Source of the DNA: a virus
Length of the DNA stretch: 22,107 nucleotides
Reading direction: 5' to 3' (one strand)
Virus record (IMG/VR): IMGVR_UViG_3300005583_000014
Location: 1-22,107 of that record
This document shows positions 1,850 to 19,705 of the stretch, piece after piece. Positions within the stretch are counted from its first letter, which is position 1, and every line of letters starts with the position of its first letter. The notes under the pieces are model-generated. The model saw only the letters and a list, made by a program, of their open reading frames with translations. It did no database searches and was not told the origin of the DNA. Both the position numbers and the translations under genes were made by a program.

Positions 1850-3241
1850 ATGAATTCGTATCAAGACTTCATGGCCACGAAACACGTCCGAGCGTTGCGG
1901 CACGGTTTTGACGTGACCGACGACTCGATCAATCAATCGCTGTTCGATTGGCAACGGTTAATTGTTCGGTGGGCGTTACGAGTTGGTCGTGCGGCGTTGT
2001 TCGAGGACTGCGGACTCGGCAAAACTCTTCAGCAACTCGAATGGGCGTCTCAGGTTTGCCAGCACACTGGCGGAAACGTACTACTGTTATGTCCGCTCGC
2101 GGTCCAATGGCAGACGATCCGCGAGGCTGAGAAGTTCGCGATTGCGACACCGTGTAAAGTCTGCGAGACGCAAGCGGACGTTGGCAACGGTATCACGATC
2201 ACGAATTATGAGAAGCTCCACCACTTCGATTCGACGAAGTTCGTCGGCGTTGTGCTGGACGAGTCTAGCGTTTTGAAATCCTACACCGGGAAAACAAAAC
2301 AGGCACTCGTTAAGCAATTCGCGGACACTCAATATCGACTCGCCTGCACCGCAACGCCTGCCCCGAATGACAGAATGGAACTCGGCAATCACGCGGAGTT
2401 CCTTGGAGTGATGCCGAGCAATGAGATGCTCGCCAGGTGGTTTGTGAATGCTGGTGACAAGGTTGGAGCGTACCGACTTCGGAAGCATGGCGAAGAGGAA
2501 TTCTGGCGTTGGGTAGCCTCATGGGCAGTGTGCATTTCATCGCCGAGCGATCTTGGGTTCGACGGAAGTCGCTACGAGCTGCCGCCGCTGAGGCTGCAAG
2601 AGCACATCGTTGATTGCCTCGTGCCGGCCGGGTATCTGTTTCAACCGACCGAACTAATCTCAGCGACGAATGTACATCGCGAGAAACGGGCCGCGTTGAA
2701 CGAGCGAGCGGATCAAGTCGCGGCACTCGTCAACGGAGACTCTGATTTTTGGGCGGTGTGGTGCGACACAGACTATGAGGCCGACGCATTGCTGAAACGC
2801 ATTCCCGACGCCTGCGAGGTGCGTGGCTCGCAATCGAACCAACAGAAAGAGATTCGCTTGCGTGATTTCACCGATGGCCGAATTCGAGTCATCATCACAA
2901 AGGCGGAGATCGGCGGGTTCGGAATGAACTGGCAGCACTGCCACAAAACGACGTGGTTCGCTGGCTACAGCTACGAGCGTTGGTATCAAGCGATCCGCCG
3001 ACTCTGGAGATTCGGCCAAACGCAGCCAGTTGAGGCTCACGTTGTCCGCACCGACCGCGAGGAATCAATCGTCGAGACCGTGCGAAGAAAACAGGAACAG
3101 CATCAAGAGATGCAACGCGAGATGGCCGGGCGGATGCAAGCGGGAATGAAAGAGGAACTCGGAATCGGTTCGACTACGTTGCGGGTTTACGAACCTGCGA
3201 AGACTGTAAAAATTCCAAAGTGGCTTCAAACGAAAGGCTAG
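1850..3241 (+). CDS. SNF2-type DEAD/DEAH superfamily 2 helicase
   Basis: ATG with GAGGAAA upstream; 463 residues. Superfamily 2 motifs are in order: DCGLGKT (Walker A, 53-59), LLLCPLAVQWQ (Ia region, near 78-88), LDESS (DExx box, 136-140) and CTATP (motif III, 166-170). GGFGMNWQ (motif V, 355-362) and QAIRRLWRFGQ (motif VI, 380-390) follow. The GLGKT and the Q..RR..R.GQ pattern are typical of SNF2-like ATPases, which translocate on double-stranded DNA. This compact form, lacking accessory domains, is common in phages and often sits beside a DNA methyltransferase, as here (6-bp gap). Role inferred: DNA remodelling or replication/recombination support. A role with the methyltransferase in protecting DNA is possible but unproved. 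Confidence 0.9.
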   Translation: MNSYQDFMATKHVRALRHGFDVTDDSINQSLFDWQRLIVRWALRVGRAALFEDCGLGKTLQQLEWASQVCQHTGGNVLLLCPLAVQWQTIREAEKFAIATPCKVCETQADVGNGITITNYEKLHHFDSTKFVGVVLDESSVLKSYTGKTKQALVKQFADTQYRLACTATPAPNDRMELGNHAEFLGVMPSNEMLARWFVNAGDKVGAYRLRKHGEEEFWRWVASWAVCISSPSDLGFDGSRYELPPLRLQEHIVDCLVPAGYLFQPTELISATNVHREKRAALNERADQVAALVNGDSDFWAVWCDTDYEADALLKRIPDACEVRGSQSNQQKEIRLRDFTDGRIRVIITKAEIGGFGMNWQHCHKTTWFAGYSYERWYQAIRRLWRFGQTQPVEAHVVRTDREESIVETVRRKQEQHQEMQREMAGRMQAGMKEELGIGSTTLRVYEPAKTVKIPKWLQTKG

Positions 3242-3247
3242 TCTGCG

Positions 3248-4246
3248 ATGAAAGCGATCAACGAACAGCACGGACAAGATTGGACGATGTTTCATGGCGA
3301 CTGCGTGGATGTTGTGCGGCAGTTACCAGACTGCTCTATTGACTACGGTGTCCACTCACCACCGTTCGCGAATTTGTTCATTTATTCAGACTCAGAAGCC
3401 GACATGGGGAACTGTGCCAGCACTGAGGAATTCATTCGGCATTACGAGTTTCTGATTGCGGAGTTGTTCCGCGTGACAGTCGTTGGCCGGTTGTGCTCGG
3501 TCCACTGCAAAGACCTGCCGAAGTACGCCAACCGCGACGAGACGACAGGACTCTTCGATTTCCCTGGCGACATCATTCGGGCATTTGAGAAGTTCGGATG
3601 GTCATATCATTCGCGAGTCACGGTATGGAAGTGCCCGGTGATTGAGCGTGAGCGAACGAACAACAACGGACTTTTGCACAAGACAATCAAGCGGGACTCG
3701 TCGCAGGTGCGGCAAGGTATGGCCGACTACCTGTTGACGTTTCGCAAGCCGCCATTCGGGACGCTGATGAGTGACAAGCCGATCGTGAGGCCGAACGGAA
3801 TCACTAACTACGTCGGCACCGAAGACCCGCGACTTGAAAACCAGCCTGACCATCCATCGCGTTTCTCACGGACACCAAGCCGCGATCCTGCACTCGCAAT
3901 CTGGCAACGCTACGCTGAGCCGGTATGGTGGGATATCGACCAAATGGACGTGCTGAATTTCAAGCACGCTCGCACGGATCGTGATGAGCGGCATATCTGT
4001 CCGCTTCAGATCGGGCTGATCGAACGAGCGATTGAATTGTGGTCAAATCCTGGTGATATTGTGTTGTCGCCGTTCGCCGGAATCGGAAGCGAAGGCGTTG
4101 GGGCGTTGCGGCGTGGCAGGAAGTTTGTCGGCGTTGAGTTGAAGGACTCATATTTCGAGGCCGCTTGCAGACATCTCGCGAGCGAGGAAACAAAAAAGAA
4201 AACACAAGAGCGGTCGTTGTTCTCACACGAGGAATTTGAAACATGA
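3248..4246 (+). CDS. Site-specific DNA methyltransferase, beta class (N4-cytosine or N6-adenine)
   Basis: 332 residues. The catalytic motif IV SPPF (37-40) is near the N-terminus, and the AdoMet-binding motif I, SPFAGIGSEG, is near the C-terminus, followed by GRKFVGVELKDSYFEAA. This order is that of beta-class amino-methyltransferases. SPP(Y/F) is more often seen in N4-cytosine enzymes, but N6-adenine cannot be excluded. The middle carries the target-recognition part. No restriction nuclease is adjacent, so it is best read as a solitary phage methyltransferase, perhaps for evading host restriction or for regulation. It follows the SNF2 helicase by 6 bp and overlaps the next gene by ATGA. Confidence 0.9.
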   Translation: MKAINEQHGQDWTMFHGDCVDVVRQLPDCSIDYGVHSPPFANLFIYSDSEADMGNCASTEEFIRHYEFLIAELFRVTVVGRLCSVHCKDLPKYANRDETTGLFDFPGDIIRAFEKFGWSYHSRVTVWKCPVIERERTNNNGLLHKTIKRDSSQVRQGMADYLLTFRKPPFGTLMSDKPIVRPNGITNYVGTEDPRLENQPDHPSRFSRTPSRDPALAIWQRYAEPVWWDIDQMDVLNFKHARTDRDERHICPLQIGLIERAIELWSNPGDIVLSPFAGIGSEGVGALRRGRKFVGVELKDSYFEAACRHLASEETKKKTQERSLFSHEEFET

Positions 4247-4485
4247 TCTTGCGAAAGAAACACCTCACCGCGTCCGAGATGCAGGCTATCGGTTGGGCCA
4301 ACCGCACGCCGGCTCAACGCCGCGAGCACCTGGCCGCGATGGGCCGGGCGTCCGCTGCGGCTCAGACGCCGGAGCAACTCGCCGAGCGAGGCCGAAAGGG
4401 TGCGATGGCTCGGATTCGCAACATCGAAGCGAAGAAATTGGCCGAAGCCAAAAGAAAAAAGACGCTGAAAACGCCGAAGAAATAG
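4243..4485 (+). CDS. Small basic helical protein of unknown function (80 aa)
   Basis: Starts in the ATGA overlap with the methyltransferase stop, so it is translationally coupled. The sequence is strongly basic and helical: KKHLTASEMQAIGWANR, then RREHLAAMGRASAAA, then ERGRKGAMARIRN. A Lys/Ala-rich tail follows. It could form a coiled coil or bind nucleic acid. Its first 17 or so codons are duplicated at 1099-1149. Family not recognised; coupling suggests function with the helicase-methyltransferase pair. Confidence 0.65.
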   Translation: MILRKKHLTASEMQAIGWANRTPAQRREHLAAMGRASAAAQTPEQLAERGRKGAMARIRNIEAKKLAEAKRKKTLKTPKK

Positions 4486-4536
4486 CGGCTTTCGCCGATT
4501 TGTTAAAGAGATTTCCATAAATTGTCGATAACTAGC

Positions 4537-4565
4537 TGGACGGGACTTGCTGACGTTGGTAAGAT
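4537..4565 (+). promoter_or_regulatory. Promoter-like element, diverged copy 3
   Basis: The sequence CTTGCTGACGTT then GGTAAGATTC (4545-4567) matches the 3' part of the elements at 490-567 and 1171-1248 but lacks about 6 internal bases. TAAGAT (4560-4565) is retained; TGGACG at 4537-4542 is a 4/6 match to -35 at 17-bp spacing. The next start codon (4614) is 48 bases past the -10, as in the other copies. Confidence 0.4.
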
Positions 4566-4613
4566 TCGACCAGACAAACGCAAACCACCTGACCTCGAAC
4601 TTGGAAACGAAAA

Positions 4614-17942: not shown

Positions 17943-18010
17943 GTGTGCCAGTTGATGGGCAAGATCAACGCGACCGAACAAATTGAAAGCCGTCACAGGC
18001 TAACAAACGA

Positions 18011-18045
18011 AGCCGCGCCAACTTGCCCTTGGTCGCGGCTTTTTT
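18011..18045 (+). terminator. Strong intrinsic terminator after the terminase operon
   Basis: AGCCGCG, then CCAA, a 7-base loop, TTGG, an unpaired T, CGCGGCT and TTTTT form an interrupted 11-bp GC-rich stem with a U-tract. It ends transcription from the terminase operon, or from the promoter candidate at 17915, immediately before the first GGA array. Confidence 0.85.
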
Positions 18046-18054
18046 CGTTTGAAA

Positions 18055-18221
18055 GGAACGGAAAGGAGAGGACGGGACAGGAGAGGAGCGGAGGGGAGCG
18101 GATGGGAATGGCTCTTCTTTCCGCCGTCGCAGAAATGTGACGGCGGAACTTCCAAAGGAGAGGAGGGGAGGGGACTGGACGGGAGGGGAGAGGAGAGGAA
18201 TGGAACGGAACGGAGAGGATT
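18055..18221 (+). repeat. GGANN pentamer array 1 with 47-nt hairpin core
   Basis: Eleven consecutive GGANN pentamers (18055-18109) are followed by a 47-nt core (18110-18156). Thirteen more pentamers (18157-18221) follow, all in strict 5-base register, then GGT8. Only GGA is fixed; the two variable bases differ from unit to unit. The 5-base period is not a codon multiple, so the array is not coding. It fills the leader of the gene at 18259. Proposed role: multi-site binding RNA for CsrA; alternatives are a terminase recognition site or an SD-like array. Confidence 0.9.
18108..18140 (+). other. Core hairpin and 10-codon micro-ORF, copy 1
   Basis: ATG at 18108 opens a 10-codon frame, MALLSAVAEM, ending at TGA 18138-18140, with GGAGC GGATG just upstream. 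The same bases form a 10-bp perfect hairpin: TTCCGCCGTC (18119-18128), loop GCAGAAATGT, GACGGCGGAA (18139-18148). Either the RNA fold or a leader peptide could be the conserved entity. Copy 2 is at 18918-18950; copy 3 starts at 19563 but has lost the stop. Confidence 0.5.
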
Positions 18222-18258
18222 GGTTTTTTTTCAACACTCAAACACGCAAGGGCAAGCA

Positions 18259-18828
18259 ATGCAAACATTGACAGTCAGACTGAGGGGCACGAGTCCAACA
18301 ATTATTCACAGCGGCCAGATGGCCAACCCGATGAACAAATTCGCGAAGGCGTTGAAGGTCATCACCGGCAAACGAAAGAAGGCCGATGAGGACTTCGAGG
18401 CGATGGCCAAGATCGAATTCATGGGGTCGCTCTATCTGTGTGCTGATGGATCACCAGGTTGGCCGGGGGAGAACATCGAGGCCATGCTGTGCGAGGCGGC
18501 ACGAAAATCCAAAGAGGGCAAGATCGCCAAGATGGCAATCTTCGTTGATGGCGTGTGCCCGCTGATTTACGCCGGGCCGAAGACGGCTGACGGGCTGTGG
18601 GAGAAGGAAGAGTTCCGCATCGTCGCAGCGGTGAAGGTCGGCATGTCGCGGGTGATGCGAACGCGGCCGATCTTCCGGCAGTGGGAATTGGTCGTGCCGA
18701 TTCAATATGACGAAAAGTTGATCGACGAAGCGAACGTGCTGACGTGGGTGAACGTGGCCGGTGCTCAGATTGGGCTGAGCGATTGGCGACCGAGGTACGG
18801 CAGGTTCAGCGTGAGCGAAGAGAAGTAA
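18259..18828 (+). CDS. Conserved-looking phage protein of unknown function (cassette gene A, 189 aa)
   Basis: ATG 18259 with CAAGGGCAAGCA upstream; the open frame extends into the array but pentamers are not coding. Notable blocks are SPTIIHSGQMANPMNKFAKA, KRKKADEDFE and WPGENIEAMLCEAARKSKEG. FVDGVCPLIYAGP, RVMRTRPIFRQWELVVPIQY and LSDWRPRYGRFSV also stand out. The fold appears alpha/beta with many aromatic and arginine residues; no Walker, zinc or nuclease motif. I recall similar proteins in other phage genomes but no assigned function. It lies between GGA arrays 1 and 2, in a terminator-bounded cassette splitting terminase from the portal genes. Confidence 0.75.
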   Translation: MQTLTVRLRGTSPTIIHSGQMANPMNKFAKALKVITGKRKKADEDFEAMAKIEFMGSLYLCADGSPGWPGENIEAMLCEAARKSKEGKIAKMAIFVDGVCPLIYAGPKTADGLWEKEEFRIVAAVKVGMSRVMRTRPIFRQWELVVPIQYDEKLIDEANVLTWVNVAGAQIGLSDWRPRYGRFSVSEEK

Positions 18829-18829
18829 A

Positions 18830-19026
18830 GGAGGAGAACGGACTGGAGAGGACTGGACGGGAACGGAGGGGATTGGATGGGAAAGGACGGGATTGGACTG
18901 GAATGGAGGGGAACGGAATGGCTCTTCTTTCCGCCGTCGCAGAAATGTGACTGCGGAACTTCCAATGGATGGGAGAGGAATGGAGCGGACGGGAGAGGAG
19001 AGGACTGGACGGGAAGGAAAAGGAAT
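18830..19026 (+). repeat. GGANN pentamer array 2 with 47-nt hairpin core
   Basis: Starts one base after the gene A stop. One irregular GGAGG unit leads into sixteen in-register pentamers (18840-18919), then the core (18920-18966). Nine regular pentamers (18967-19011) follow, then three slipped GGA units ending at 19026. The core differs from copy 1 at two bases, one of which (G to T at 18952) breaks a stem pair. GGAATGGCT recurs at the array's end, ahead of a small hairpin (CTTTC/GAAAG) carrying the gene B ribosome binding site. Confidence 0.9.
18918..18950 (+). other. Core hairpin and micro-ORF, copy 2
   Basis: Same MALLSAVAEM frame with TGA at 18948-18950. The hairpin arms TTCCGCCGTC and GACTGCGGAA (18929-18958) have one mismatch relative to copy 1. 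Conservation of the 5' arm and loop is complete. Confidence 0.5.
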
Positions 19027-19052
19027 GGCTTCTTTCACAGAAAGGAAAACTG

Positions 19053-19487
19053 ATGGACGGACAAGAAACATACCCGATCGACACGACCGACCTGCACAAA
19101 GGATCGGTTGTCACGATGGCTCGATTGATCGAAATCACGAAGGCAATGCCGGGCACGTCGCGCTATGCGTTTCGTTTGTTGCGGTTGAAGAACTTCATCG
19201 CGAAGGCGTTGGCGCGACGTGGCGAACCGGCGACGTGTGTCATTCGTCAGAACGAGATTGTGATTCTGACTGACGCGGAAGCGAACCAATACAACTTCAG
19301 TTTCGCAGGCAGTGGTGCGAGGCGGATTCGCCGATCGACGATCCGGCACGCGACGATTGACCTGTCGAAGCTGACGCCGGACGAGCGGCTTGATTGGGAC
19401 AAAAAGGCGGGCCGGCTGGCGATGATGGTCGAAGGGCTGAAGGTAAAGGCGTTGCCCGCACCGGAGCCGCATAAACGGTTGCAGTGA
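19053..19487 (+). CDS. Phage protein of unknown function (cassette gene B, 144 aa)
   Basis: ATG 19053 with AAAGGAAAACTG upstream. The N-terminal half, SVVTMARLIEITKAMPGTSR then FRLLRLKNFIAKALARRG, reads as helices. The centre is beta-like (TCVIRQNEIVILTDAEAN). The C-terminal half is basic (RRIRRSTIRHATIDLSKLTPDERLDWDKKAGRL). No catalytic motif. The combination of basic surface and helices would suit DNA or RNA binding, but this is only composition. It lies between arrays 2 and 3 and ends 2 bases before array 3, so array 3 would be its 3' untranslated region. Confidence 0.7.
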   Translation: MDGQETYPIDTTDLHKGSVVTMARLIEITKAMPGTSRYAFRLLRLKNFIAKALARRGEPATCVIRQNEIVILTDAEANQYNFSFAGSGARRIRRSTIRHATIDLSKLTPDERLDWDKKAGRLAMMVEGLKVKALPAPEPHKRLQ

Positions 19488-19489
19488 AA

Positions 19490-19666
19490 GGAGCGGAATG
19501 GAGCGGATAGGAATGGAGTGGAGGGGATGGGACTGGAGCGGAGGGGAATGGAGCGGATTGGAATGGCTCTTCTTTCCGCCGTCGCAGAAATGAGACGGTG
19601 GAACTTCCAAAGGACTGGATGGGAGGGGATGGGATTGGAAGGGAGAGGAATGGAAAGGACGGGAAG
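19490..19666 (+). repeat. GGANN pentamer array 3 with 47-nt hairpin core
   Basis: Fifteen in-register pentamers (19490-19564), core (19565-19611) and eleven pentamers (19612-19666). The core differs from copy 1 at two bases: one converts a G-C pair to G-U and keeps the stem, the other removes the micro-ORF stop (TGA to AGA). The array runs from the gene B stop into the terminator at 19673, so it is a 3' untranslated segment or the body of a separate short RNA. Confidence 0.9.
19574..19603 (+). other. Core hairpin, copy 3 (micro-ORF stop lost)
   Basis: TTCCGCCGTC (19574-19583), loop GCAGAAATGA, GACGGTGGAA (19594-19603); a G-U pair replaces G-C. The frame from ATG 19563 stays open through the following pentamers, which suggests that the hairpin rather than the peptide is under selection here. 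Confidence 0.5.
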
Positions 19667-19672
19667 TAATCA

Positions 19673-19705
19673 AAGCCCGCTGGGAAAACTCAGCGGGCTT
19701 TTTTT
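19673..19705 (+). terminator. Strong intrinsic terminator closing the GGA cassette
   Basis: AAGCCCGCTG (19673-19682), loop GGAAAACT, CAGCGGGCTT (19691-19700), continuing to seven T residues in all (19699-19705). A 10-bp stem with a U-tract is a canonical Rho-independent terminator. Together with 18011-18045 it brackets the cassette. Confidence 0.9.

Follow-up and report, generated by a model that had tools for sequence, protein, structure and literature searches.

A probable VIPR guide locus with GGA-type pentamer arrays in a tailed phage

Layout of the locus and its pentamer arrays

In the 22,107-nucleotide stretch of viral DNA analysed here (the window; IMG/VR record IMGVR_UViG_3300005583_000014), two genes and six unbroken runs of GGANN pentamers lie together on the plus strand between two hairpins resembling intrinsic terminators (Table 1), neither of which was called by a consensus terminator scan. 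The runs amount to 76 units in three hairpin-centred elements. An earlier sequence-only reading had described six blocks with 75 regular units; the six blocks stand and the total is corrected, since the fourth block holds 10 units, not 9. Across all 76 units the first three pentamer positions have zero entropy, the third base being A in every one, and the two variable positions carry 1.93 and 1.94 of 2 bits (joint NN entropy 3.52 of 4 bits), which bears out the claim of an invariant GGA followed by near-random NN. Elsewhere in the window the longest GGANN run on either strand is two units, and nothing comparable to the arrays was found. The lack of CC and TC among the NN pairs, likewise pointed out earlier, is true of the window and is due to chance; it is no rule, because relatives use both pairs freely (CC 10 times in L051, TC 14 times in L014).

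Table 1. Predicted features of the locus, in window coordinates
Feature	Position	Strand	Support or remark
Intrinsic-terminator-like hairpin and T run, upstream of the locus	18009-18045	+	fold -19.4 kcal/mol, z -4.5
vrRNA1 guide array, 11 GGANN units	18055-18109	+	
vrRNA1 3' tail with hairpin 18119-18148	18110-18156	+	fold z -3.8; tail shared with L054 and L034
vrRNA2 guide array, 13 units	18157-18221	+	
Tail after vrRNA2, without hairpin, beginning GGTTTTTTTT	18222-18258	+	
Putative vipr gene, 189 aa, phrog_4652, RAMP fold	18259-18828	+	family match, AF2 model, homology
vrRNA3 guide array, 16 units	18840-18919	+	
vrRNA3 3' tail with hairpin 18929-18958	18920-18966	+	fold z -3.0
vrRNA4 guide array, 10 regular units, then slipped ones to about 19028	18967-19016	+	
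Candidate vap accessory gene, 144 aa	19053-19487	+	Vipr-linked family, distant SUSP1 profile match
vrRNA5 guide array, 15 units	19490-19564	+	
vrRNA5 3' tail with hairpin 19574-19603	19565-19611	+	fold z -2.5
vrRNA6 guide array, 11 units, reaching into the terminator-like hairpin	19612-19666	+	
Intrinsic-terminator-like hairpin and T run, end of the locus	19672-19704	+	fold -23.1 kcal/mol, z -5.9

The array blocks are intergenic and the constant core between paired blocks folds as a hairpin, in agreement with the earlier description of non-coding blocks paired around a constant core. This core serves one unit as its 3' tail and sets it off from the next. A hairpin tail is not present after arrays 2, 4 and 6. 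Comparison with the 4227 Rfam families gave no match to the window at E <= 1 and none to six relatives at gathering scores. In 78 of 136 GGA-type arrays the last GGANN is followed by a GGC or GGT unit, frequently GGCT or GGTT, as if the tail kept the pyrimidine form. Some array 3' tails in related loci (L102, L099, L149, L043, L017/L089 and L127) carry a stem-loop resembling a tRNA T arm (TTCRANN loop), found 12 times in 36.7 kb beside arrays vs 10 times in 1.28 Mb elsewhere. ARAGORN reported no complete tRNA in these tails except an ill-defined one in L017, and three of the folds tested were no more stable than shuffles; the stem-loops are possibly a tRNA mimic for RNA processing.

The two genes and their linkage to the arrays

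VIPR was described in 2026, shown with phage SUSP1 and proposed to predate CRISPR (PMC13142463). As that description has it, Vipr is a RAMP protein with an RRM core that binds vrRNAs composed of GGY/NN pentamers and a 3' tail, whose NN pairs read DNA non-contiguously with one base skipped; a VIPR locus combines tandem pentamers (9-16 units, conserved GGY, hypervariable NN) with a structured 3' tail and a vap gene (PMC13142463). In the window, the product of 18259-18828 matches phrog_4652, a family of unknown function (E 4e-55), and its AlphaFold model (pLDDT 94) matches the Csm3, Cmr and Cas7 RAMP subunits in a Foldseek search of the PDB (best E 8e-5); one family member also matches a Csm3 profile. 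It is 36% identical to the SUSP1 protein over 187 aligned columns (E 2e-40), and is therefore predicted to be a minimal, 189-residue RAMP protein homologous to SUSP1 Vipr. Among GenBank phages, the gene family occurs in Felixounavirus, SUSP1, LESphi2, LittleE and MakoManhole, with GGT or GGC arrays in the corresponding position (weak in MakoManhole). In SUSP1, GGY arrays flank the locus upstream and downstream of two genes, and because this layout, with a single array before the two genes and further ones after them, agrees with the published one, the family member there is taken to be the vipr of the published work. Since that assignment was made by layout and not by accession, the identification of VIPR in the window is based on homology and fold together with layout and the form of the arrays.

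The second gene (19053-19487) is a candidate vap accessory gene. Its product has no family match in Pfam or PHROG, its AF2 model (pLDDT 89) found no match in a fold search of the PDB, and its family comprises 12 loci, every one with Vipr. A weak and distant profile match links this family to the SUSP1 gene that lies downstream of vipr (hmmsearch 1.5e-6 over five sequences; hhalign probability 79 against the group).

Arrays and Vipr are linked well beyond the window. Scanning IMG/VR for ten units of GGANN returned 81 loci, about half of them simple repeats and most of the others with near-random NN; the latter have several arrays per contig, all on the same strand, and in most of them a relative of the 18259-18828 product lies usually within 150 bases of an array. 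In an enlarged set, Vipr is present at 31 of 35 high-entropy vs 6 of 47 low-entropy GGANN loci (Fisher 2e-12), the four high-entropy loci without it including short stretches or ones ending at the array. A GGYNN scan gave at least 120 loci, with Vipr at 77 of 96 high-entropy ones among the matches listed. High-entropy GGANN arrays are thus found mainly at Vipr loci. That the arrays are a plain pentanucleotide microsatellite might be argued from the many simple repeats among the other IMG/VR matches, and is scarcely credible given the near-maximal NN entropy at Vipr loci and a five-base register that survives complete NN replacement. Low-complexity drift is also contradicted by the shifted control motif AGGNN, because its arrays never show high-entropy NN (0 of 80 loci, seven of which have Vipr).

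The sole cellular relative found was in a Candidatus Zixiibacteriota MAG, on a bacterial contig of which (L321, 3510-3970) a GGA-type VIPR carries five guides split by the constant tail GGCTTTCCTTCTAGGCGTACAGA.

Taken as a whole, we regard the region, with a probability of about 0.93, as a tailed-phage VIPR locus in which about six vrRNA guides accompany a Vipr RAMP protein and a candidate accessory protein, with GGA in place of GGY. In the published account, every VIPR type is said to follow GGY/NN "or a related consensus" (fig. S17), and the main text makes no mention of GGA (PMC13142463). The GGA form would then be a purine-type variant beyond the GGY of the paper's text, with a real chance that the consensus of fig. 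S17 already covers it.

Guide code, turnover and the third base

A codon-phase test was used to ask whether successive NN pairs hold one codon phase, corresponding to a one-base skip, or cycle through phases, as judged by carrier codon statistics, with carrier codon usage standing in for that of the target. For the 133 GGA guides a constant phase is preferred to other steps by 30.6 and 37.0 nats, and none of 5000 bootstrap resamples over 32 loci fell at or below zero. Reversing the letters of each pair reduced these values to 6.9/5.1 and shuffling the letters to 13.5/16.3 nats, whereas guides simulated with a one-base skip gave 37.2/28.2 and those with 0-, 2- or 3-base skips were negative. Because part of the signal persists in shuffled guides, it is partly one of base composition; the GGY guides reach 75.7 and 87.5 nats for one phase with higher controls (42.4/29.1 and 36.5/31.7), so that part of their signal is compositional as well. 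The drops on reversal and shuffling, together with the simulations, therefore indicate that the GGA form carries the same signature as the published one-base-skip code. Skipping the wobble base is the best fit for 73 of the 133 guides. Taking NN as the first two codon letters turns window guides into degenerate strings that look like protein (A-I-A-Y-I-V-G-C-L-A-G-I-A-F-I for the guide at 19490), which is suggestive only. The former view of NN as neutral is abandoned, since NN is the message in VIPR and bears a codon-phase signature in GGA guides.

Comparison of close relatives documents the turnover of guides. Vipr is 98% shared between the window and L054, and the flanks compared at array 1 are 100% identical, yet 17 of 22 NN letters of that array differ (unrelated guides would give 16.5) with every GGA kept; between L017 and L089, again with identical flanks, 7 of 24 NN letters differ and 0 of 36 GGA letters (Fisher 9e-4). 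The expectation that relatives keep the register while NN changes, without GGA decaying like NN, is thus confirmed. As the arrays were found by their GGA, more weight falls on the register, which stays unchanged, and on the similar length while NN is replaced. The sense-strand arrays of L014 and L050 (about 2768-4048 and 3703-4608) have near-identical flanks and more than ten guides each, some shared and some replaced, and are a natural record of guide gain and loss.

Such complete NN turnover is unexpected for a constant operator, as would be required if a TRAP-like ring protein regulated the flanked genes, in transcription or translation, by binding about 11 GGANN repeats. TRAP binds about 11 (G/U)AG triplets with 2-3 base spacers, and the window blocks, at 10-16 units, are of similar length; those of relatives reach 37 units, a variability on which the ring was rejected, and the linked protein has a RAMP and not a TRAP fold. 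We therefore give this explanation almost no weight.

The third base is nearly pure per locus, with 1686 A vs 112 C/T in GGA loci and, among the matches listed, 3613 C/T vs 93 A in GGY loci, although the A/Y labels come from the discovery patterns and bias the counts towards purity. On a tree of 112 Viprs (quick method) the GGA and GGY kinds are interspersed and the A/Y label switches repeatedly, needing 13 changes, only 4 of them forced by well-supported branches. Residues separating the two kinds form a weak cluster around an RPIFxxW motif. Tentatively, and with the balance somewhat against it, the third base could be an identity letter read by the protein, GGA- and GGY-type Viprs being separate, repeatedly switched specificities, so that rival phages could run mutually deaf guide systems in one cell.

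The pyrimidine loci also bear on CsrA, whose RNA site has GGA at its core and whose homologue is encoded by this phage at 5445-5684 (Pfam CsrA, E 2.7e-21), so that the arrays might act as a CsrA decoy. CsrB/RsmZ-type sponges are noncoding RNAs with many GGA motifs, and the window arrays resemble them in being noncoding and GGA-rich; they differ in their strict five-base register and linked RAMP gene. Sister phage loci with GGC or GGT at the same place, together with the codon-phase signature of NN, argue against a sponge, which was rejected for want of a csrA association: CsrA is found in 3 of 45 array-bearing vs 3 of 33 mostly simple-repeat records, many of them fragments. We hold this function to be very unlikely.

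Targets, proposed mechanism and relation to known systems

Local, IMG/VR, GTDB and Zixiibacteriota scans turned up no natural target of a GGA guide. Local scans with 136 and 430 guides at skips of 0-4 showed no clear excess at a skip of one, and a search among terminase relatives gave no target. The exact patterns of three window guides had 2, 5 and 12 matches in IMG/VR, at chance level and with mismatched flanking units, and one such pattern had zero matches in GTDB. Three guides of the Zixiibacteriota relative, compared with 132 genomes of the phylum, yielded three weak matches, at chance in the flanks where checked and none convincing. Among GGY guides, the one at 2380 in L211 fits the minus strand of L181 near position 3789: read with the one-base skip, 19 of 20 letters agree and the skipped base falls at wobble positions. 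A hand estimate puts the chance expectation at about 0.02 such matches, and the match lies on the antisense strand of a probable portal gene, the frame and gene name having been assigned by eye.

This lack of targets, and a third base unlike that of the published text, would suit a VIPR-derived locus whose GGA form is used otherwise, with another skip length, on RNA targets, or as a decoy against the GGY Viprs of rivals. Such a use appears improbable, as the codon-phase test favours a one-base skip as in GGY guides and the two kinds of Vipr interleave on the tree.

Under the VIPR reading, the locus would express about six vrRNA guides of 10-16 GGANN pentamers each, three of them carrying a hairpin tail at the 3' end. 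On the analogy of SUSP1, Vipr copies, presumably one per pentamer, would coat the RNA by gripping GGA, and the displayed NN pairs would bind double-stranded DNA in an xNNxNN pattern that leaves out a base in every unit, as a rule the wobble base of a codon; the outcome would be silencing of genes of competing phages or satellites. For the GGA locus we infer all of these steps, from transcription and RNP assembly to target binding, silencing and the identity of the targets, from that analogy. The sequence-only reading had seen GGA as a fixed contact register, which fits in so far as GGA is held and NN variable, an unknown element with protein contact points being only half right; the paired blocks are, on the VIPR reading, separate guides instead of a single symmetric site.

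A purine-type branch with repeated A/Y switches offers natural material on how Vipr reads its scaffold, for orthogonal guide systems and for a generality test of the non-contiguous code. With the codon-phase test, the skip rule can be checked in any VIPR clade without known targets.

The closest known system is SUSP1 VIPR, with which the window shares a Vipr homologue, a candidate vap, arrays upstream and downstream, the pentamer register with hypervariable NN, a structured 3' tail and one-base-skip statistics, and from which it differs in having GGA instead of GGY, a different tail in the form of a simple hairpin, and two vrRNAs between vipr and the second gene. Class 1 CRISPR-Cas effectors (Csm3/Cas7) resemble Vipr in their RAMP fold and Gly-rich C-terminal loop, whereas the window locus has no CRISPR array or cas genes, a period of 5 rather than 6 nt and a non-contiguous guide; a class 1 array was rejected because the repeats are pentamers and the arrays enclose just Vipr and a single small gene. 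TIGR-Tas likewise comprises phage-encoded guide RNAs in tandem arrays and targets DNA, but its effector was reportedly found by starting from a guide-interaction domain of Cas9 and not from RAMPs, and its guides are tandem interspaced spacers instead of GGx/NN pentamers (PMC12045711).
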